Shown in pieces: positions 8,176-41,666 of a DNA stretch of 64,000 nucleotides. Source of the DNA: Dyella sedimenti (GTDB lineage Bacteria > Pseudomonadota > Gammaproteobacteria > Xanthomonadales > Rhodanobacteraceae). A model generated the notes under the pieces. The model was given only the letters and a program-made list of their open reading frames with translations. It had not been told where the DNA came from and searched no databases. Numbering within the stretch: position 1 is the stretch's first letter; each line of letters starts with the position of its first letter. The stretch covers positions 930,001 through 994,000 of the forward strand of contig NZ_JAKWJO010000001.1 in assembly GCF_022760995.1 (NCBI RefSeq). The letters run 5' to 3'. The translations under genes and the position numbers were made by a program.

Positions 8176-10005
<1,830 letters not shown>

Positions 10006-30550: not shown

Positions 30551-31699
30551 ATGACCGAGCAAACCACCCTCCCCAAGCCCAAGAAATCCGTTGCCCTCTC
30601 GGGCGTGGCCGCGGGCAACACCGCGCTGTGCACGGTCGGCCGCAGCGGCAACGACCTGCACTATCGCGGCTACGACATCCACGACCTGGCGGCCAAGGGT
30701 TGCTTCGAGGAAGTGGCCTACCTGCTGGTGTACGGCGTGCTGCCGAACTGGGCGGAACTGAACGCCTACCGCGCCAGGCTCAAGCGCCTGCGCGGCCTGC
30801 CGGCCCCGGTGAAGGGCGCGCTGGAGCTGCTGCCGGCCGCCACCCATCCGATGGACGTGCTGCGCACGGGTTGCTCGATGCTGGGCACCGTGCTGCCGGA
30901 GAAGGACGACCACAACGTCACCGGCGCCCGTGACATCGCCGATCGCCTGATGGCCAGTTTCGGCTCGATGCTGCTGTACTGGTACCACTTCAGCCACAAC
31001 GGCAAGCGCATCGAGACGGAGACCGACGACGAGTCGATCGCGGCCCACTTCCTGCACCTGCTGCACGGCAAGCGGCCGAGCGACCTGCACGCGCAGTCGC
31101 TGGACAAGTCGCTGGTGCTGTACGCCGAGCATGAGTTCAATGCCTCCACCTTCACCGCCCGCGTGATCGCCGGCACCGGCTCGGACATGTACTCGGCCAT
31201 CACCGGCGCCATCGGCGCGCTGCGCGGTCCCAAGCACGGCGGCGCCAACGAGGTGGCGATGGAGATCATCGCGCGCTACCGCAGCGCGGCCGAGGCGGAC
31301 GCGGACATCCGCGCCCGGGTGGATCGCAAGGAGATCATCATCGGCTTCGGCCACCCGGTCTACACCGTGTCCGACCCGCGCAACGAGATCATCAAGGAGA
31401 TCTCTCGCAAGCTCTGCACCGAGGGTGGCAACCCGACCCTGTTCGACGTGTCGGAGAAGATCGAGAAGCTGATGTGGGAGCAGAAGAAGATGTTCCCCAA
31501 CCTCGACTGGTACTCGGCCAGCGCCTACCACATGATGGGCGTGCCCACCGCCATGTTCACCCCGCTGTTCGTGATCTCGCGTACCTCCGGCTGGAGCGCT
31601 CACGTGATCGAGCAGCGCCAGGACGGCAAGATCATCCGCCCCAGCGCCAACTACACGGGGCCGGAAGACCAGGCCTACGTGCCGATCGAGAAGCGCTGA
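30551..31699 (+). CDS. prpC: 2-methylcitrate synthase
   Basis: 382 residues of the citrate synthase family with the shorter PrpC layout. [30 protein letters not shown] active-site helix ([18 protein letters not shown]), [13 protein letters not shown] (catalytic His) and [13 protein letters not shown] (second His) are present. It condenses propionyl-CoA with oxaloacetate. It ends at a strong terminator; prpD is not next but 5.7 kb further on, beyond the amyloid-like operon. Confidence 0.96.
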
Positions 31700-31726
31700 T
31701 CGCATCGACGGCGCGGCGCAAGGAAG

Positions 31727-31750
31727 AGGGAGCGAAAGCTCCCTTTTTCT
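31727..31750 (+). terminator. Terminator of prpBC
   Basis: AGGGAGC, GAAA tetraloop, GCTCCCT, then TTTTC. Confidence 0.88.
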
Positions 31751-32148
31751 TTGCCGTCTTTCGTTTCGGTTCAGGACCCTGTACGACATTGCTATCGTTT
31801 CGTGCGCATCGGTGTAACAGGCCTGTTACGCCTGTTCCACAGCGAGGTGCGTTGTGCGCTAGGTGCCGCAAGCCGCTGATCGCCCGACTCATGTCCGCGC
31901 GGTTATGAACGCAGCCCCGCGCCTGCCATTCCGGCAGGTGTAACAGCCGTGCGCCAGCCGGAGCCCGCGGGCGATTCGCCCTGGCCGGCCCCGGGAGGAA
32001 AGAGTCTTTTCAAGTCACTGATTTCGCAGCCGTCGCAGGCATGCTTGCGCCAATCCGGTGCATGGCATGCATGTTGCGATAAAGGCGTGCTGGATGGCGC
32101 AACGCCAGCACTACAGGGGGTCACCGCATCGTTCCAGGAGTAATGACT
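31751..32148. other. Leader region of the amyloid-like operon
   Basis: 398 bp without a gene, less GC-rich than its surroundings. It contains a perfect 16-bp palindrome at 31814-31829, a related GTGTAACAG copy at about 31938, and the operon's ribosome-binding site AGGAG at 32138. A long 5' leader with regulatory input is likely. No sigma-54 or sigma-70 box is convincing. Confidence 0.5.
31814..31829. promoter_or_regulatory. Perfect palindrome upstream of the amyloid-like operon
   Basis: GTAACAGGCCTGTTAC, 320 nt before the first gene. A candidate operator; the regulator is unknown. Confidence 0.4.
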
Positions 32149-33105
32149 ATGCGTAAGACTCTAATCGCGACCGCGATCGTACTGGGATTGGGATTGGCCC
32201 TCCCGGCCTTCGCGGATGACAACACCTCCCATGGCAGCAGCACGTTGACCGACTCGAGCACGCACACCAACTCGAGCACGCATACCAAGACTTTTACTGA
32301 TGCCTTCAACCCAGGCGATGCGACCACTTCGGGTGAGGGCACCGCGGCGGCCAACAATGGCGGCACCGCTACCGCGACGTTCTCCGATTCGTTCAACACC
32401 AACATCGCGGTGGCCAACAGCGAGCTTTCCGGCTCCGTCAGCGATGTCGGCGTCAGCGGCATCGGCAACTGGGCGCAGAACAACGGCGCGGCCAGCGGCG
32501 GCCGTGGCGGCAGCGGCGGCAAGGGCATCGGCGGCAAGGCGATCGGCGGCAACGGCGCCAGCGGCGGCGATGGCGGCAACGCCTTTTCGCACAGCGGCCG
32601 GGCCGGCGGATCGGGCGCCGATTCGGGCGATGCCGGCGCCTTGAGCGCCTCGCTGGGCGGCTTCTCCAACGGCGGCAGCTCCGGCGATGCCGACAGCCAT
32701 GCGCACAACCGTGGCGCCGGTTCGGCAGGCGGCGGCACCAACAGCTCGGGCGCCGGCGGCGAATCGACCGGTGGCGCGGGCGGCGCCGGCACCTCGACCG
32801 GCACCAGCGGCTATGCGAGCGCGACGGGCGGCACCAGCGGCGCATCCACGGCGGATGCCGGTGGCGGTGGCGCGGGTGGCTCGGGCTCGGGCGGCACCGG
32901 CGGTGCCGGTTCGGGCGGCTCGGGTGGCGCGGGCGGTACGGGCGGCACGGCCTATGCCGATGCCGGCACGTTCGACATGTCCAACCAGATGAACAATGCC
33001 GCAGCGGCTGCCGCGGGCGTCACGATCATGGCGCAGAACAGCGGTGCGGCATCGCTGGTTCAGCAGAGCGTGAACGTCCAGGCCAACCTCAACCTCGGCC
33101 ACTGA
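32149..33105 (+). CDS. Gly/Ser-rich exported protein, candidate amyloid-like major subunit
   Basis: 318 residues from ATG 32149, which has correct spacing to AGGAG; the ATG at 32143 is too close. The signal peptide is MRKTLIATAIVLGLGLALPAFA. After a Thr/Ser-rich stretch with repeated STHT units comes a motif GNWAQNNGAAS (~residues 107-117). A ~175-residue low-complexity Gly/Ala/Ser linker follows, and then a second copy of the motif near the C-terminus (IMAQNSGAASLVQQSVNVQ). Two Gln/Asn repeats separated by a disordered linker is the layout of FapC-type functional amyloids, although I see no direct FapC identity. It is first in a five-gene operon with a C39 peptidase and an FapF-like exporter. 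Confidence 0.7.
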   Translation: MRKTLIATAIVLGLGLALPAFADDNTSHGSSTLTDSSTHTNSSTHTKTFTDAFNPGDATTSGEGTAAANNGGTATATFSDSFNTNIAVANSELSGSVSDVGVSGIGNWAQNNGAASGGRGGSGGKGIGGKAIGGNGASGGDGGNAFSHSGRAGGSGADSGDAGALSASLGGFSNGGSSGDADSHAHNRGAGSAGGGTNSSGAGGESTGGAGGAGTSTGTSGYASATGGTSGASTADAGGGGAGGSGSGGTGGAGSGGSGGAGGTGGTAYADAGTFDMSNQMNNAAAAAAGVTIMAQNSGAASLVQQSVNVQANLNLGH

Positions 33106-33234
33106 AATCCGCGGGACCCGCACGGTGGGGCGCTTGCGCCCCGCCGTGCCGGATGCGGATCGCGAAAGCCTGACGGAAAGGGCAGGAGCGTTTGCATCCC
33201 TGCCGTGGCGACAACCGAAGCTGGGAGGTAGGCC

Positions 33235-33657
33235 GTGCAAGCTCTCCAATGGACGCTTGGTTTTACTCTTGCCTGTGCGGCTGCGGTACCGGCCGGAGCC
33301 TGCGCGGAAGACGCGCCTGCGCCCGCCGGCTATCTCGCGACAGGCGCGGATTCGCCCATCGCCGTCTATGCGTCGGCGGCGCAGGCGGATGGCGAGGCGG
33401 CGATGGATGCAGGGCTGGGCGAGCGCGTGGACAACGCCGCGCTGGCCGGCATGAGCGGCGGCACCATGGTGATCCAGCACACCGCGCTCACCGGCACCGT
33501 CTCCAACGACACGGCGAACCACGTGGTCACCGGTGACAACGTCATCATGGGCAGTTCGTTCGCCGGCGAGGCCGGCATCCCGGTGGTGATCCAGAACTCC
33601 GGCAACAACGTGCTGATCCAGAACGCCACCGTCCTCAACGTGCAATTCAAGCCATGA
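33235..33657 (+). CDS. Small exported protein with GG site and IQN repeat, candidate minor subunit
   Basis: 140 residues from a GTG at 33235 preceded by GGGAGG. A signal-like N-terminus (MQALQWTLGFTLACAAAVPAGACA) leads to a ~45-residue spacer ending VDNAALAGMSGG at residues 65-76. Relative to the GG this has Val at -12, Leu at -7 and Met at -4, like a C39 cleavage site. The rest is beta-rich with IQHTALTGTVSN and a terminal IQNSGNNVLIQNATVLN that resembles the C-terminal motif of the first gene. It overlaps the C39 peptidase gene by ATGA. It may be a nucleator (FapB-like) or minor fibre subunit; this is inference. Confidence 0.65.
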   Translation: MQALQWTLGFTLACAAAVPAGACAEDAPAPAGYLATGADSPIAVYASAAQADGEAAMDAGLGERVDNAALAGMSGGTMVIQHTALTGTVSNDTANHVVTGDNVIMGSSFAGEAGIPVVIQNSGNNVLIQNATVLNVQFKP

Positions 33658-34340
33658 ACAGGTGGGCGGTGCTGCTGATGGGACTGGCGGCACTGCCGCT
33701 CGGAAGCCTTGCTTCCACGCCCATGGGCGTGGTCAGCCCGGGGGCGGGCACCTTCACGGTGCACCTGACGAGCCTGAAGGAGGCGCGCTACAAGAGCACC
33801 ATCCACCAGAAGTACGACTTCAGCTGCGGCTCGGCGGCCGTGGCCACGCTGCTCACCTACCAGTACGGCTACCCGGTGAACGAGCAGGTCGCCTTCGAGC
33901 AGATGTACGTGCATGGCGACCGCGCCAAGATCACCAGGGAAGGCTTCTCGCTGCTCGACATCAAGCGTTTCCTGGCGGCCAACGGCTTCGATGCCGACGG
34001 CTTCCGCGTGCCGCTGGACAAGCTGGCGCAGGAACGGCTGCCGGCCATCGTGCTGATCGACGAGAAGGGCTACCACCACTTCGTGGTCATCAAGGGCCTG
34101 CGCAACGAGCGTGTGCTGGTTGGCGATCCGGCGCGGGGCACGCGGGTGATCGCGCGCGCGCGCTTCATGGCCATGTGGAAGAACGGGCTGGTGTTCGTCA
34201 TCCACAACCGGCGCGACCTGGCGGTGTTCAACAGCCTGGGCGACTGGAAGGTGGCGCCGCCCGCGCCATTGGATACCGCCGTCGACCGCAACAGCACTTT
34301 CAACCTCGTGATGCCCAAGAAAGGGCCGGACGATCTCTGA
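33654..34340 (+). CDS. C39-family peptidase (FapD-like), exported
   Basis: 228 residues with N-terminal signal MNRWAVLLMGLAALPLGSLA, so it is periplasmic rather than fused to an ABC exporter. The papain-like C39 core is complete: Cys58 in KYDFSCGSAAVATLLTYQYG, His142 in GYHHFVVIKGL and Asp158 in VLVGDPARG. C39 enzymes cut after double-glycine leaders, and a stand-alone exported C39 protein is the FapD component of functional amyloid operons. It is translationally coupled to the preceding subunit gene, and both flanking genes encode proteins with GG sites. These proteins are the likely substrates, by inference. Confidence 0.85.
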   Translation: MNRWAVLLMGLAALPLGSLASTPMGVVSPGAGTFTVHLTSLKEARYKSTIHQKYDFSCGSAAVATLLTYQYGYPVNEQVAFEQMYVHGDRAKITREGFSLLDIKRFLAANGFDADGFRVPLDKLAQERLPAIVLIDEKGYHHFVVIKGLRNERVLVGDPARGTRVIARARFMAMWKNGLVFVIHNRRDLAVFNSLGDWKVAPPAPLDTAVDRNSTFNLVMPKKGPDDL

Positions 34341-34351
34341 GGGACCCGACG

Positions 34352-34876
34352 ATGCGAGCCACGACACGCGTGATCTGTCTCGGTACGGCCTTTGTCGCCG
34401 CCGGCACCTGGGGCCTTGGCGCCAGGGCGCAGGCCGCGGCCGCCGTGGCGGGCCTTGCCGACTGGACGGCGCCGGTGAGCCAGCAGACGCTGGCGGAGAC
34501 GCGGGGCGGCTTCGACGTGGGCAACGGCCTGATGGCGTCGTTCGGCATCGACCGCGCTGTCTACGTCAACGGCGACCTGGTCGCCTCGACCAGCTTCAAC
34601 ATCCCCGACATCGCGCGCATGACCCAGGCGCAGGCGGCGGCGATGGCGACCGCGCTCAATGCGATGTCGCTGACCCAGGTCGGGCCCAACAACACCTTCG
34701 ATCCCTCGGCGCTCGGCCAGACCTCCGCCGGTACGGTGATCCAGAACACGCTGGACAACCAGAACATCCAGAGCATCACCACGCTCAACACCTCGGTCAA
34801 CTCGCTCAATGCGTTCCGCGATGCGAACTTCCAGAGCGCGTTGCAGCAGGCGCAACTGCAGTCCCTGGGACATTGA
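34352..34876 (+). CDS. Exported protein with GG site, FapE-like position
   Basis: 174 residues from ATG 34352. The signal region MRATTRVICLGTAFVAAG is followed by VSQQTLAETRGGFDVGNGL, where GG falls at residues 52-53 with Leu at -7 and Val at -12, resembling a C39 site. Downstream are a beta-rich segment (ASFGIDRAVYVNGDLVAS) and Gln/Asn-rich stretches (GTVIQNTLDNQNIQSITTLN). It lies between the C39 peptidase and the exporter, the place of fapE in Pseudomonas. No direct family match can be claimed. Confidence 0.6.
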   Translation: MRATTRVICLGTAFVAAGTWGLGARAQAAAAVAGLADWTAPVSQQTLAETRGGFDVGNGLMASFGIDRAVYVNGDLVASTSFNIPDIARMTQAQAAAMATALNAMSLTQVGPNNTFDPSALGQTSAGTVIQNTLDNQNIQSITTLNTSVNSLNAFRDANFQSALQQAQLQSLGH

Positions 34877-34984
34877 GATGGGACGCGCGCCACCGCCAGC
34901 CGTTTCCATCCACGGGCGCGCCGCGGCCGATACCCGCGGCGTGTTCGTCTGCGCACGAAGGCATACCGGGAATCATGGGGAAGC

Positions 34985-36412
34985 ATGATGCGACACGCAG
35001 CGTGGCGGTATCTTTGGTCGTCGGGATGTGCCGGGCTGGCCCTGCTCGGCGCGCCGGTCGCGGCGCAGGAACCACCGCCGCCGGCGGGAGCGGCGGCCCC
35101 GGCATCATCGGTCCCGCCGGATGAGCTGCGCAGGCAAGTCCAGGAGCAGGGCGAGCGCATCGAGGCGATGCGCAGCCAGATCAGCGCGCAGATCGAGCAG
35201 CTCGACGCCATGAAGCGCGCGCTGGCGCAGCAGGAAGCGGACTACCAGTCGCTGCGGCACGCGGTAGGCATGGACGAGCTGGACAAGCAGCGCGCGGGCA
35301 GCATCGCCGCTGGCGGTCCGCTGGCCTCGGCCCTGCCCATGCCCGCCTCGGAAGCGGTAGCGTCCAATGCGCCGTCGCCCGATCCGCAGTCGGCCCAGCA
35401 GCCAGTCGGGCAGGCGCCGAAGCAGGACACGCGGCCGCCGGAAGTGGCGCCGATCTTCCAGCAACCCGGCGTGCTCACGCCCAAGGGCAAGTTCATCATC
35501 GAGCCGGCCTACCAGTACCAGTATTCCTCGGTCGATCGCGTGGCGCTGGTCGGCTATACGGTGATCCCGGCCATCCTGATCGGCCTGATCGATGCGCGCC
35601 AGGTCAAGGACACCACCCAGATCGGCTGGTTGACGGGACGCTACGGCATCACCAACCGGCTGGAGGTGGAGCTGCGCGTGCCCTACGTCTATGCGCACCA
35701 GGACACGGTCAGCCGCGAGATCTTCACCGGCGCCGCCACCGACAACGCGTTCGGCTCGAGCGGCCACGGCCTGGGCGACATCGAGGCGACCGCGCGCTAC
35801 CAGCTCAACGTGGGCGGGCCGGACAAGGCGTTCTACGTGGGCTGGCTGCGCGTGAAGTCGCGCACCGGCAAGGACCCGTTCCAGGTCACCACCGACTGCG
35901 TCCAGCGCTGCGTGGAGAACGTCATCGACACGGTGGATCTCTCCGCCACCGGCACCGGCCTGCCGCTGCAGCAGCCGACAGGCTCGGGCTTCTGGTCGAT
36001 CCAGCCCGGCGTCACCTGGCTCTATCCCTCCGATCCGGTGGTGTTCTTCGGCAACGTGAGCTACCTGTACAACGTGGCGCGCGACAACGTGAGCCGGAAA
36101 ATCCTGCTCGGCGGCACCGAGTACCTGGGCAAGGTCAAGGTGGGCGACGTGGCCGACGTGAGCGTGGGCATGGGCCTTTCGCTCAACGAGAAGGCCTCGA
36201 TCAGCATCGGCTACGACCAGAGCTTCGTAGGCATCACCAAGCAGAACAACAAGACCGTGCCCGGCTCGGTAAAGACCGTGCTGGGCACGCTGCTGATCGG
36301 CGGTTCGTGGCGCTTCAGCGACAAGCGCACGCTCAACTTCACCCTGGGCGTCGGCGTCACGCGCGATTCGCCCGATGCGACGGTGACCGTGCGTGTGCCG
36401 ATGATGTTCTAG
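34985..36412 (+). CDS. FapF-like outer-membrane exporter with N-terminal coiled coil
   Basis: 475 residues. The signal peptide spans about residues 1-27 (to VAAQ). A predicted coiled coil at ~40-95 (ELRRQVQEQGERIEAMRSQI, ALAQQEADYQSLRHAVG) precedes a Pro/Ala-rich hinge. The remainder is a beta-barrel starting at GKFIIEPAYQYQYSSVDRVAL and ending VTVRVPMMF. This coiled coil plus barrel layout and length match FapF, the trimeric pore that secretes Fap amyloid subunits. The MetA-pathway phenol degradation/'transporter' barrel families look similar, so FapF identity rests on the layout and the C39 neighbour. Its TAG stop overlaps the stop of the convergent TerC gene. Confidence 0.75.
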   Translation: MMRHAAWRYLWSSGCAGLALLGAPVAAQEPPPPAGAAAPASSVPPDELRRQVQEQGERIEAMRSQISAQIEQLDAMKRALAQQEADYQSLRHAVGMDELDKQRAGSIAAGGPLASALPMPASEAVASNAPSPDPQSAQQPVGQAPKQDTRPPEVAPIFQQPGVLTPKGKFIIEPAYQYQYSSVDRVALVGYTVIPAILIGLIDARQVKDTTQIGWLTGRYGITNRLEVELRVPYVYAHQDTVSREIFTGAATDNAFGSSGHGLGDIEATARYQLNVGGPDKAFYVGWLRVKSRTGKDPFQVTTDCVQRCVENVIDTVDLSATGTGLPLQQPTGSGFWSIQPGVTWLYPSDPVVFFGNVSYLYNVARDNVSRKILLGGTEYLGKVKVGDVADVSVGMGLSLNEKASISIGYDQSFVGITKQNNKTVPGSVKTVLGTLLIGGSWRFSDKRTLNFTLGVGVTRDSPDATVTVRVPMMF

Positions 36413-37107
36413 TGTTCTTTGGAGCCTCCATCCCCGCGCGGAGACCGGGAACAGCGCGCCAGCCAGCCGCCCGCGCACACGCCGGCCACCAGCAGCGCGT
36501 CGAGCACATACATCGCCCAGGGGCGCGCGTCGAACCAGGGAGCCAGCCAATGGTCGTGGGCGATCATACGCGCCGAGGTCCAGGCGATCGCCGCCGCGCC
36601 GATGTACACGATGACCGGAAAGCGCTCGATCAGGCGCAGGATCAGCGACGAGCCCCACACCACCAGCGGCACGCTGATGGCGAGGCCGAGGGCCACCAGC
36701 AGCATGTGGCCTTTCGCCGCACCGGCGATCGCCAGCACATTGTCCAGGCCCATCAGCGCGTCGGCCACCACGATCGTGCGCATGGCGGCCCAGAAGTTGC
36801 CGGCGGCATCGACCTCGTGCGGCGGCCTGGATTCCTGCCGCAGCAGCTTCCAGGCGATCGGCAGCAGCAACAGGCCGCCCGCCAGCATCAGGCCGGGCAA
36901 TTCGAGCAGGTAGATCACCACCGCGGTCAGCGCCAGGCGCACCGCCACGGCGCCCATCGTGCCCCACAGCACGGCCTTGCGCTGGATGTGGCGGGGCAGG
37001 TTGCGCGCGGCCAGCGCGATCACGATGGCGTTGTCGCCCGCCAGCACCAGGTCCAGCAGCACGATGGCCAGCAGGCCAGAGAGGAAGTCGGTACCCGTCA
37101 GTTCCAT
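36409..37107 (-). CDS. TerC/YjbE-family membrane protein
   Basis: 232 residues, seven to eight helices. The family's acidic intramembrane motifs are clear: LLDLVLAGDNAIVIALAARNL and VVADALMGLDNVLAIAGAAKGH. TerC relatives of the YjbE/YkoY type handle Mn2+ (efflux or metalation of exported proteins). That role is supported here by a yybP-ykoY riboswitch directly upstream. The C-terminal tail is hydrophilic (RSPRGDGGSKEH). The stop codon shares the tetranucleotide CTAG with the stop of the amyloid-exporter gene. Confidence 0.9.
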   Translation of the reverse strand: MELTGTDFLSGLLAIVLLDLVLAGDNAIVIALAARNLPRHIQRKAVLWGTMGAVAVRLALTAVVIYLLELPGLMLAGGLLLLPIAWKLLRQESRPPHEVDAAGNFWAAMRTIVVADALMGLDNVLAIAGAAKGHMLLVALGLAISVPLVVWGSSLILRLIERFPVIVYIGAAAIAWTSARMIAHDHWLAPWFDARPWAMYVLDALLVAGVCAGGWLARCSRSPRGDGGSKEH

Positions 37108-39062: not shown

Positions 39063-40178
39063 ATGAAACGTAAGGGCTTGTACATCCTGATTGCCCTGGC
39101 CCTGGGCGGCGCAGGCGCCGTTCATGCGCAGGACAACACTTCCAGCTCCACGCCGACCTCGACGACGACGACCTCCTACGATGATCGCTGGTACATCGCG
39201 CCGACGGTGGGCGGCTACTACAACGATACCGATCGTCACACCAACAGCCGCCAGTTCTACTATGGCCTGGGCTTCGGCCGGTTCTTCTCGCCGAACTTCT
39301 CGCTGGACTTCTTCTTCGACCGTACCAAGCGCACGATCGACGACAGTGCCGGCGGCGGCCGCTGGTTCAACAACAATTACGGCGTGGCCGCCCGCTACTA
39401 CTTCCTCGGCTGGACCGACTGGCGCCCGTACATCCTGGGCGGCGTGATCGGCAGCGATCACCACAACCCGTACGACAGCGGCTGGGATCCGGCCGCCGAG
39501 CTGGGCGTGGGCCTGTCCAAGACCATCACCGACAGTTCGGACTTCCGCGTGGAAGCCGGCTACCGCTACGACTGGGACGACAAGTCACAGCCGAGCAAGA
39601 ACGGCTATGGCGACTGGTTCCTGGGCTTCAGCATCGTCTCGCGCCTCGGGCCGCCGCCGGCCGCCCCGGCGCCGCCGCCGCCGCCGCCGGCTGCGCCGGA
39701 CTGCTCCAAGCAGTTCCGCAACGGCGTGAACCTGTGCGACAACAAGTGCCCGGATCTGCCGGAAGGCACGATCGTGGGTCCGGATGGCTGCCCGCAGAAG
39801 GTGGTGATCGACCTGCGCGGCGTGAACTTCAAGTTCGACCGTCCGAAGAAGGGCGAGACCGACATCGCCAAATCGCTGGCCGAACCGACCAAGGACTCGC
39901 TGGCGATCCTCGACCAGGCCGTGGATACCCTGCAGCGCTATCCGCAGGTTCGCGTCACCGTTGCCGGCTACACCGACGGCATCGGTACGGCCCAGTACAA
40001 CCAGGGCCTGTCGGAGCGCCGCGCGAAGATCGTGTACGACTACCTGACCGCGCACGGCATCGCCGCCAGCCGTCTGGATGGCCCGATCGGCCATGGCAAG
40101 AACGACCCGATCGACACCAACGACACGGAAGCCGGCCGCGCCCGCAACCGCCGCACCGAGCTGCAGGTGGAGCAGTAA
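39063..40178 (+). CDS. OmpA-family outer-membrane protein 1
   Basis: 371 residues. The signal peptide is MKRKGLYILIALALGGAGAVHA. An eight-stranded barrel spans ~25-195 (RWYIAPTVGGYYNDTDRHTNS to GYGDWFLGFSIVSRL), then a Pro-rich hinge (APPPPPPPAAP). A Cys-containing TSP3-like segment follows (CSKQFRNGVNLCDNKCPDL), and a C-terminal OmpA peptidoglycan-binding domain ends the protein (VTVAGYTDGIGTAQYNQGLSERRAKIVYDYL, GRARNRRTELQVEQ). It links the outer membrane to the cell wall. It is a tandem paralogue of the next gene. GAGGAGA provides a strong ribosome-binding site. Confidence 0.95.
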   Translation: MKRKGLYILIALALGGAGAVHAQDNTSSSTPTSTTTTSYDDRWYIAPTVGGYYNDTDRHTNSRQFYYGLGFGRFFSPNFSLDFFFDRTKRTIDDSAGGGRWFNNNYGVAARYYFLGWTDWRPYILGGVIGSDHHNPYDSGWDPAAELGVGLSKTITDSSDFRVEAGYRYDWDDKSQPSKNGYGDWFLGFSIVSRLGPPPAAPAPPPPPPAAPDCSKQFRNGVNLCDNKCPDLPEGTIVGPDGCPQKVVIDLRGVNFKFDRPKKGETDIAKSLAEPTKDSLAILDQAVDTLQRYPQVRVTVAGYTDGIGTAQYNQGLSERRAKIVYDYLTAHGIAASRLDGPIGHGKNDPIDTNDTEAGRARNRRTELQVEQ

Positions 40179-40559: not shown

Positions 40560-41666
40560 ATGAATCGTAAGGGCTTGTATTTCCTGATTGCCCTAGCCCT
40601 GGGCGGCGTAGGTGCCGTTCACGCGCAAGACAACACTGCCGGCGCCACGACCGCGCCGGGCTACGACGGCCGCTGGTACATCGCGCCGACCGTTGGCGGC
40701 TACTACAACGACACCGATCGCAACACCAACAGCCGCCAGGTCTACTACGGCCTGGGCTTTGGTCGCTTCATCGCCCCGAACACCTCGATCGACCTGTTCT
40801 TCGATCGTACCAAGCGCGACGTGGACAACTCGCTGGGTGGCGGTCGCTGGGCGAACAACAACTACGGCGTGGCCGCCCGCTTCTACTACGGCGACTGGAA
40901 CGCATGGCGTCCGTACGCCCTCGTGGGCGTGATGGGCAGCTACCACCAGAACGCGTCGGACAACGGCTGGTCGCCGGCCGCCGAGGTGGGCGTGGGCCTG
41001 TCCAAGACCATCACCGACAGCACGGACTTCCGCGTGGAAGCCGGCTATCGCTACGATTGGGACGACAAGACCCAGCCGAGCCAGAACGGCTACGGCGACT
41101 GGTTCCTGGGCTTCAGCATCGTGTCGCGCTTCGGCGAGCCCGCTGCCGCCCCGGCCCCGGCTCCCGCCCCGGCCCCGGCCGCGCCGGACTGCTCCAAGCA
41201 GTTCCGCAACGGCGTGAACCTGTGCGACAACAAGTGCCCGGATCTGCCGGAAGGCACGATCGTGGGTCCGGATGGCTGCCCGCAGAAGGTGGTGATCGAC
41301 CTGCGCGGCGTGAACTTCAAGTTCGACCGTCCGAAGAAGGGCGAGACCGACATCAAGAAGGCGCTGGCTGAGCCGACCGCCGACTCCGTCGCCATCCTCG
41401 ACCAGGCCGTGGACACCCTGCAGCGTTACCCGCAGGTCCGCGTGACCGTCGCCGGCTACACCGACGCGGTGGGCACCGATGCCTACAACCAGTCGCTGTC
41501 GGAGCGCCGCGCGAAGATCGTGTACGACTACCTGACCGCGCACGGCATCGCCGCCAGCCGTCTGGATGGCCCGATCGGCCATGGCAAGAACGACCCGATC
41601 GACACCAACGACACGGATGCCGGCCGCGCCCGCAACCGTCGTACGGAGCTGCAGGTCCAGCAGTAA
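40560..41666 (+). CDS. OmpA-family outer-membrane protein 2
   Basis: 368 residues. Same architecture as the preceding gene: signal peptide MNRKGLYFLIALALGGVGAVHA, eight-strand barrel, a hinge of Ala-Pro repeats (APAPAPAPAPAAP) instead of poly-Pro, the same Cys-containing segment, and an OmpA C-terminal domain (VTVAGYTDAVGTDAYNQSLS). The C-terminal half is almost identical in DNA to copy 1, while the barrels and hinges differ. It has its own leader and terminator. The two may be expressed under different conditions. Confidence 0.95.
   Translation: MNRKGLYFLIALALGGVGAVHAQDNTAGATTAPGYDGRWYIAPTVGGYYNDTDRNTNSRQVYYGLGFGRFIAPNTSIDLFFDRTKRDVDNSLGGGRWANNNYGVAARFYYGDWNAWRPYALVGVMGSYHQNASDNGWSPAAEVGVGLSKTITDSTDFRVEAGYRYDWDDKTQPSQNGYGDWFLGFSIVSRFGEPAAAPAPAPAPAPAAPDCSKQFRNGVNLCDNKCPDLPEGTIVGPDGCPQKVVIDLRGVNFKFDRPKKGETDIKKALAEPTADSVAILDQAVDTLQRYPQVRVTVAGYTDAVGTDAYNQSLSERRAKIVYDYLTAHGIAASRLDGPIGHGKNDPIDTNDTDAGRARNRRTELQVQQ

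Follow-up and report, generated by a model that had tools for sequence, protein, structure and literature searches.

Which proteins would an exported C39 peptidase cut when its gene lies between those of two small exported proteins and ahead of a FapF-like outer-membrane pore, as in the 64,000-nucleotide stretch of Dyella sedimenti DNA analysed here (the window)? The question also bears on FapD, which is required for amyloid secretion in Pseudomonas and whose target was called unclear in 2017 and undetermined in 2018. FapE was proposed as a possible FapD target in 2017 (PMC5557850), and FapE and FapF are described as ‘thought to’ be processed by FapD in a 2025 review. The answer favoured here is that the two small proteins, designated S and E, carry double-glycine-type leaders behind Sec-like signals, and that these leaders are probably cut by the peptidase, D, in the periplasm before secretion by the pore. 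FapE and FapF had thus already been proposed as targets; what is new is the leader, its conservation and spread, and its register, the FapE leader not being named in the open-licence papers searched.

All genes of the operon lie on the + strand. The glycine-rich protein of 320 residues with a Sec-like start (32143..33105) has no Pfam or NCBIfam match, and we infer that it is the probable major subunit; its C-terminus, AAGVTIMAQNSGAASLVQQSVNVQANL, resembles by eye the amyloid repeat of small subunits, and no leader was seen in it. It is followed by S (140 residues, GTG start, Sec-like start, 33235..33657), likely a minor subunit and the first predicted substrate, by D (228 residues, 33654..34340), by the FapE-like protein E (174 residues, Sec-like start, 34352..34876), the second predicted substrate, and by the pore F (475 residues, 34985..36412), in which a coiled-coil-like N-terminal part precedes a barrel-like part. 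Against the FapF model NF058560, F scored 150.3 bits, below the cut-off of 700 for membership, while E gave no match to the FapE model NF058559 (cut-off 250 bits) at an E-value of up to 1, and no NCBIfam model matched S, E or the glycine-rich protein, none of which reached a family cut-off. The FapA, FapB and FapC genes of the NCBIfam Fap system were not found in the window, where repeat-like C-termini were recognized by eye only, and a promoter scan of 31600-36700 returned none. Further along, at 39063-40178 and 40560-41666, two adjacent and very similar OmpA-like proteins (371 and 368 residues) are encoded, likely a tandem duplication.

D belongs to the C39 domain family (PF03412, 73.6 bits against a cut-off of 22) and is FapD- and FilB-like, with scores of 139.5 bits for FapD (NF058616, cut-off 330) and 124.2 bits for FilB (NF050078), both below the membership cut-offs. 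It retains Gln52 together with Cys58 (33825-33827), His142 (34077-34079) and Asp158 (34125-34127), and the Cys-His-Asp triad is constant in 113 of 114 aligned rows, the remaining row being gapped. The top solved relative by sequence is 6mpz, the LahT double-glycine protease (53.4 bits), and the structure model of D (mean pLDDT 77.8) is closest to PCAT1, ComA and LahT. The nearest named relatives are found in Dyella species (79-81% identity at best), then in Rhodanobacter and Luteibacter.

Known double-glycine leaders follow the pattern LSxxELxxIxGG (PMC3897388). ComA requires Leu(-12)-x3-Glu(-8)-Leu(-7), and LahT offers hydrophobic pockets for positions -4, -7 and -12, with residues -4 to -11 of the leader forming a two-turn helix (PMC6363468). 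S carries a motif of this kind at residues 65-76 (VDNAALAGMSGG, 33427..33462, + strand), with Val at -12, Leu at -7, Met at -4 and a terminal Gly-Gly, exactly where the original prediction had put it. In E the motif occupies residues 42-53 (VSQQTLAETRGG, 34475..34510, + strand) and likewise ends at the residue predicted, 53, with Val at -12, Leu at -7 and Gly-Gly, but with Thr at both -4 and -8, and the cut is predicted before Phe54. The placing of these two genes on either side of a C39 gene, and of its active-site cysteine at residue 58, also proved correct. The estimate that the leaders come about 30-50 residues after the Sec signal was close: with Sec cleavage sites placed by eye near residues 24 (S) and 26 (E), the distance from there to the end of the leader is about 52 residues in S and 27 in E. 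The structure model of E is poor (mean pLDDT 57.9) and has a helix at residues 44-49 and coil at 51-55.

A site of this kind could arise by chance in alanine- or glycine-rich proteins, and one site taken alone would be weak evidence: a loose hydrophobic-x4-hydrophobic-x4-GG pattern no further than 100 residues from a signal-like start was found in 58 of 944 control ORFs, a set that includes non-genes and was filtered with a crude in-house rule for Sec signals. The strict form with R-G-[GRK] occurred in 10 of the 944, of which two belong to C39 loci themselves, and in 197 of 18,400 shuffles. Nevertheless, the S and E motifs are conserved across orthologues and are therefore not attributed to chance, and since conservation extends across FapE families, chance resemblance is very improbable and already contradicted by the counts that follow.

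The survey covered 114 D loci, comprising a first set of 29, 80 further regions, four records from plasmid collections and the window itself; near-copies of loci in the first set and a number of additional C39 places were left out. A FapE-type protein was detected by HMM 3' of D in 92 of the loci, the other 22 being 20 class-wide Fil-like loci, the Acinetobacter Fil locus and one broken locus (L155). All 92 FapE-type proteins carry the leader, 64 in the R-G-G form of the window (window type) and 28 in a Fap-type form (R-G-R in 24, R-G-K in 4); in four loci (L062, L067, L070 and L164) the first regular-expression match was an upstream chance match and the second was taken by hand. The surroundings are also shared: F is present in 105 of 109 D-bearing loci, S was detected in 63 of the 64 window-type loci, and a homologue of the glycine-rich protein occurs in 28 of the first 29.

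Conservation of the Gly-Gly positions in orthologues had been set beforehand as a condition for the original prediction, and at E it holds in full: Gly-Gly, and indeed R-G-G, is present in 64/64 window-type proteins, with Leu (63) or Met (1) at -7, although Glu at -8 is found in just 10. Across the window and the first 29 loci, Leu(-7), Arg(-3), Gly(-2) and Gly(-1) of E are each constant (30/30). For S the outcome is divided. Its leader is present in all 63 loci that have S (read by eye in L173, VSDAELGEVAGK), and Leu(-7) and Gly(-2) are invariant in the 30-locus set, where Gly(-1) reaches 28; however, Gly-Gly itself is kept in just 49 of the 63, GS, GK, GT, GM, GR, GQ, AM or AK standing in its place in the other 14. 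Mean identity in E rises from 14% over the 20 residues ahead of the leader to 53% in the leader and is 39% over the next 40 residues. Conservation extends about 20 residues beyond the predicted cut site, and part of it may for that reason serve the mature fold of E.

The same site is found in FapE proper. Among 119 Pseudomonadaceae genomes, which were located via the PrrF RNA, FapE was found in 32 (33 matches), and the 30 proteins examined, each above the curated FapE cut-off, all contain L/V/I-x3-E-[L/M]-x2-L-R-G-[R/K]-[Y/F], for example LKDQELAQLRGRY at residues 29-41, with Glu(-8) and Leu(-4) in 30/30 and with Arg (23) or Lys (7) at -1. In Fap-type and Pseudomonadaceae FapE the leader takes forms such as LSDxELxxLRG[R/K][F/Y] at the same place as in E, and fits positions -12, -8, -7 and -4 in the ComA/LahT register (PMC6363468, PMC10885120); over the whole comparison with that register the hydrophobic residues at -12, -7 and -4 are matched and Glu at -8 in part. 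The Fap-type loci are genuine relatives of Fap, with proteins that match the Fap models (FapE 70.9, FapB 86.7, FapC 183.9 and FapA 37.6 bits), still below their cut-offs; a locus of Aeromonas caviae with the same gene order carries LADGELAHLRGRY in its FapE-type protein (46.6 bits to NF058559). FapE-like proteins from databases have the leader in 56 of 57 cases, the 57th being annotated as starting at MRGRF. A matrix built from window-type leaders places its top-scoring window at this site in 28/28 Fap-type proteins, and a matrix built from Fap-type leaders does so in 63/64 window-type proteins, although only 46 of these 64 sites exceed the 99th percentile of the controls with it.

The original prediction expected a clear substrate for FapD-type enzymes, and the leader is indeed present in genuine FapE, but with Arg or Lys rather than Gly at -1; a small residue (Gly, Ala or Ser) was not found there, the 28 Fap-type proteins having Arg in 24 and Lys in 4. 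R-G-G is thus the form that the window's clade gives to a wider site. In 12 wider Pseudomonadaceae loci the leader is found in FapE and is absent from FapB and FapF. The FapB stretch IDGNALSGANGA was considered as a leader and rejected, as it is an amyloid repeat that recurs as DNAFQQVSGITQVQQNNG and similar forms. A looser look-alike, such as LSDGDFARIHTG or LNDNDFAAVTSG, was matched by a loose pattern in FapA-type ORFs of 11 of 40 Fap-type loci (L207, L208, L210, L211, L213-L215, L217, L067, L068 and L075), and could represent either mimicry of a leader or a second target of FapD.

Known C39 enzymes cut after GG, GA or GS, so the Arg or Lys of the Fap type (28/28) and the bulky residues of some S proteins (14/63) are a misfit. 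Either the enzymes of these loci accept a larger residue at -1, or the bond cut is the one after Gly(-2), and this is the main uncertainty. Arg, Lys and other bulky residues at -1 would also suit a different role, in which D binds the motif as a docking helix and serves as chaperone or delivery factor, making no cut there, much as some type I systems use C39-like domains that have no catalytic activity to tether their substrates (PMC6363468). We consider this unlikely, given that the triad is intact in every aligned row but the gapped one, that FapC secretion in an E. coli assay is abolished by the FapD C38A substitution (PMC5557850), and that Gly(-2) is retained in 92/92 FapE-type proteins.

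Cutting at the leader could also be doubted on the ground that the motif is the N-terminal edge of the mature FapE-like fold, with the C39 enzyme cutting something else, for example the pore. The conservation that reaches about +20 would agree with this, as would the profile alignment between the two FapE-type groups, which is confined to a single block made up of the leader and the 20 or so residues after it (probability 89), and the 2017 paper also suggests a cut in the FapF linker (PMC5557850). Yet S carries the motif common to both proteins although its mature part differs from that of E, the pattern is that of the C39 leader consensus in register, and the pores of Pseudomonadaceae and other Fap-type loci have no matching site even though FapD is needed there, which makes the fold-edge explanation improbable. 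Counted against periplasmic cutting of the leaders is also the statement in the 2017 paper that canonical C39 sequences are missing from Fap proteins (PMC5557850). Counted in its favour is the report, in the same paper, of FapE as the sole Fap protein for which no peptides covered the first ~70 residues.

The enzymes divide in the same way as the leaders. In a quick tree a branch with support 97 sets the 64 GG-type peptidases apart, and C39 position 155 (window 34116-34118), three residues ahead of the catalytic Asp, is Leu in 63 of the 64 and Glu (13), Tyr (7) or Phe (5) in most of the 28 RG[R/K]-type enzymes. This position is possibly in contact with leader residue -1, which is offered only as a lead. 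Covariation between the enzyme and the -1 residue was rejected as independent evidence, because the change between Arg/Lys and Gly coincides with a single split of the enzyme tree.

F may contain a third site, in addition to those of the original prediction, at residues 94-105 (VGMDELDKQRAG, 35264..35299, + strand), which ends in RAG and closes the coiled-coil-like part. Of the 64 window-type F proteins, 50 were counted by eye as having the pattern V/L/M-x4-L-x3-R-[G/A] at this place, and several relatives have RGG there, such as Cupriavidus metallidurans (L171, VDSESLARKRGG). A leader-like site as a general feature of Fap pores was rejected, as none of the 28 Fap-type pores and none of the Pseudomonadaceae FapF starts examined had a credible match; for this reason the F site is regarded as a lineage feature. 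As evidence it carries less weight, since it terminates a coiled-coil-like stretch, a setting with recurrent leucines. Its place recalls the published proposal of a FapD cut in the FapF linker, before the barrel (PMC5557850).

Sec export followed by a periplasmic cut at a double-glycine-type leader, the two-step maturation of the original prediction, is supported at the level of sequence, and a route can be outlined. S, D, E, F and the glycine-rich protein would be exported via Sec, as their Sec-like starts suggest. The leader, V/L-[S/D]-x3-L-x2-[M/V/x]-[R/S]-G-G, would then bind D as a short helix, in the manner of the LahA leader on LahT, to judge from the match of leader and enzyme class. 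Cleavage by D after Gly-Gly is predicted to leave a mature E beginning FDVG and a mature S beginning TMVI. Only trimmed minor subunits would enter or open the pore, a step suggested by the effect of FapD C38A on FapC secretion. Fap proper would work likewise: its substrate would be FapE, and R-G-[R/K] would replace R-G-G, the bond lying before or after the Arg or Lys.

The canonical Gly-Gly of the window's operon type exposes, by comparison, a FapE leader with Arg or Lys at -1, and on sequence grounds FapE is likely the long-sought substrate of FapD. The question of what FapD cuts is thereby narrowed to a single peptide, a single enzyme and some three or four residues. The comparison further suggests that C39 enzymes can act as a checkpoint in amyloid secretion outside the inner membrane, independently of any ABC transporter.

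The closest known system is Fap of Pseudomonas (FapA-F), which shares with the window the order of peptidase, FapE-type protein and FapF-type pore, an exported C39 enzyme and the position of the leader. It differs in having R-G-[R/K] where the window has R-G-G, whereas the window has a second leader-bearing protein, S; the window type further has the pore site in 50 of 64 loci and a peptidase branch of its own. The Fil system of Acinetobacter (FilA/DUF6160 and FilB) also has an exported C39 peptidase, to which D bears the resemblance scored above, and Fil-like loci encode neighbouring Sec-like proteins, the FilA type with DUF6160 included, that carry L-[S/T]-[D/E]-x2-[L/M]-x4-[G/A]-[G/Q]. Unlike the window, they have TGQ or TAG at the site and diverse substrates. 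Looser leader forms, such as LSDNQLDQMTAG and MDDAALSAATGQ, lie beside 21 C39 genes (20 class-wide and one in the Acinetobacter locus), and in 10 of these 21 loci a neighbour exceeds the 99th control percentile by either matrix, two of the ten (L117 and L121) not being leader-like by the second; leader-like forms in Fil-like loci are therefore only tentatively recognized. In L113, L111, L172 and other Fil-like loci, a DUF6160/FilA-type protein with a Sec-like start followed by L-x4-[L/M]-x4-G-Q adjoins the exported C39 gene, and in L129 a Sec-like protein with LSDGVLSGVRGRG (8182-8541) adjoins a short, possibly cut C39 frame (an open frame of 173 residues).

There is about an even chance that these systems share a Gram-negative two-ticket export code, in which a Sec signal and a double-glycine-type leader for exported C39 peptidases serve Fap (R-G-[R/K]), the GG type and Fil/DUF6160 (T-G-Q, T-A-G), the second cut licenses passage through a FapF-like pore, and FapE is the FapD substrate. 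Ax21 of Xanthomonas, initially a cautionary case, was dropped, as it has been published as a protein that has no GG leader. ComA, LahT and PCAT1, from bacteriocin and RiPP systems, share with the window the leader consensus in register and the C39 fold and triad. In those systems, in contrast, the peptidase sits N-terminally as a domain of an ABC transporter and acts on the cytosolic side, whereas both the enzyme and the leaders of the window stand behind Sec-like signals, and D is predicted to use a C39-type recognition sequence that normally serves inside cells to trim S and E outside the inner membrane.
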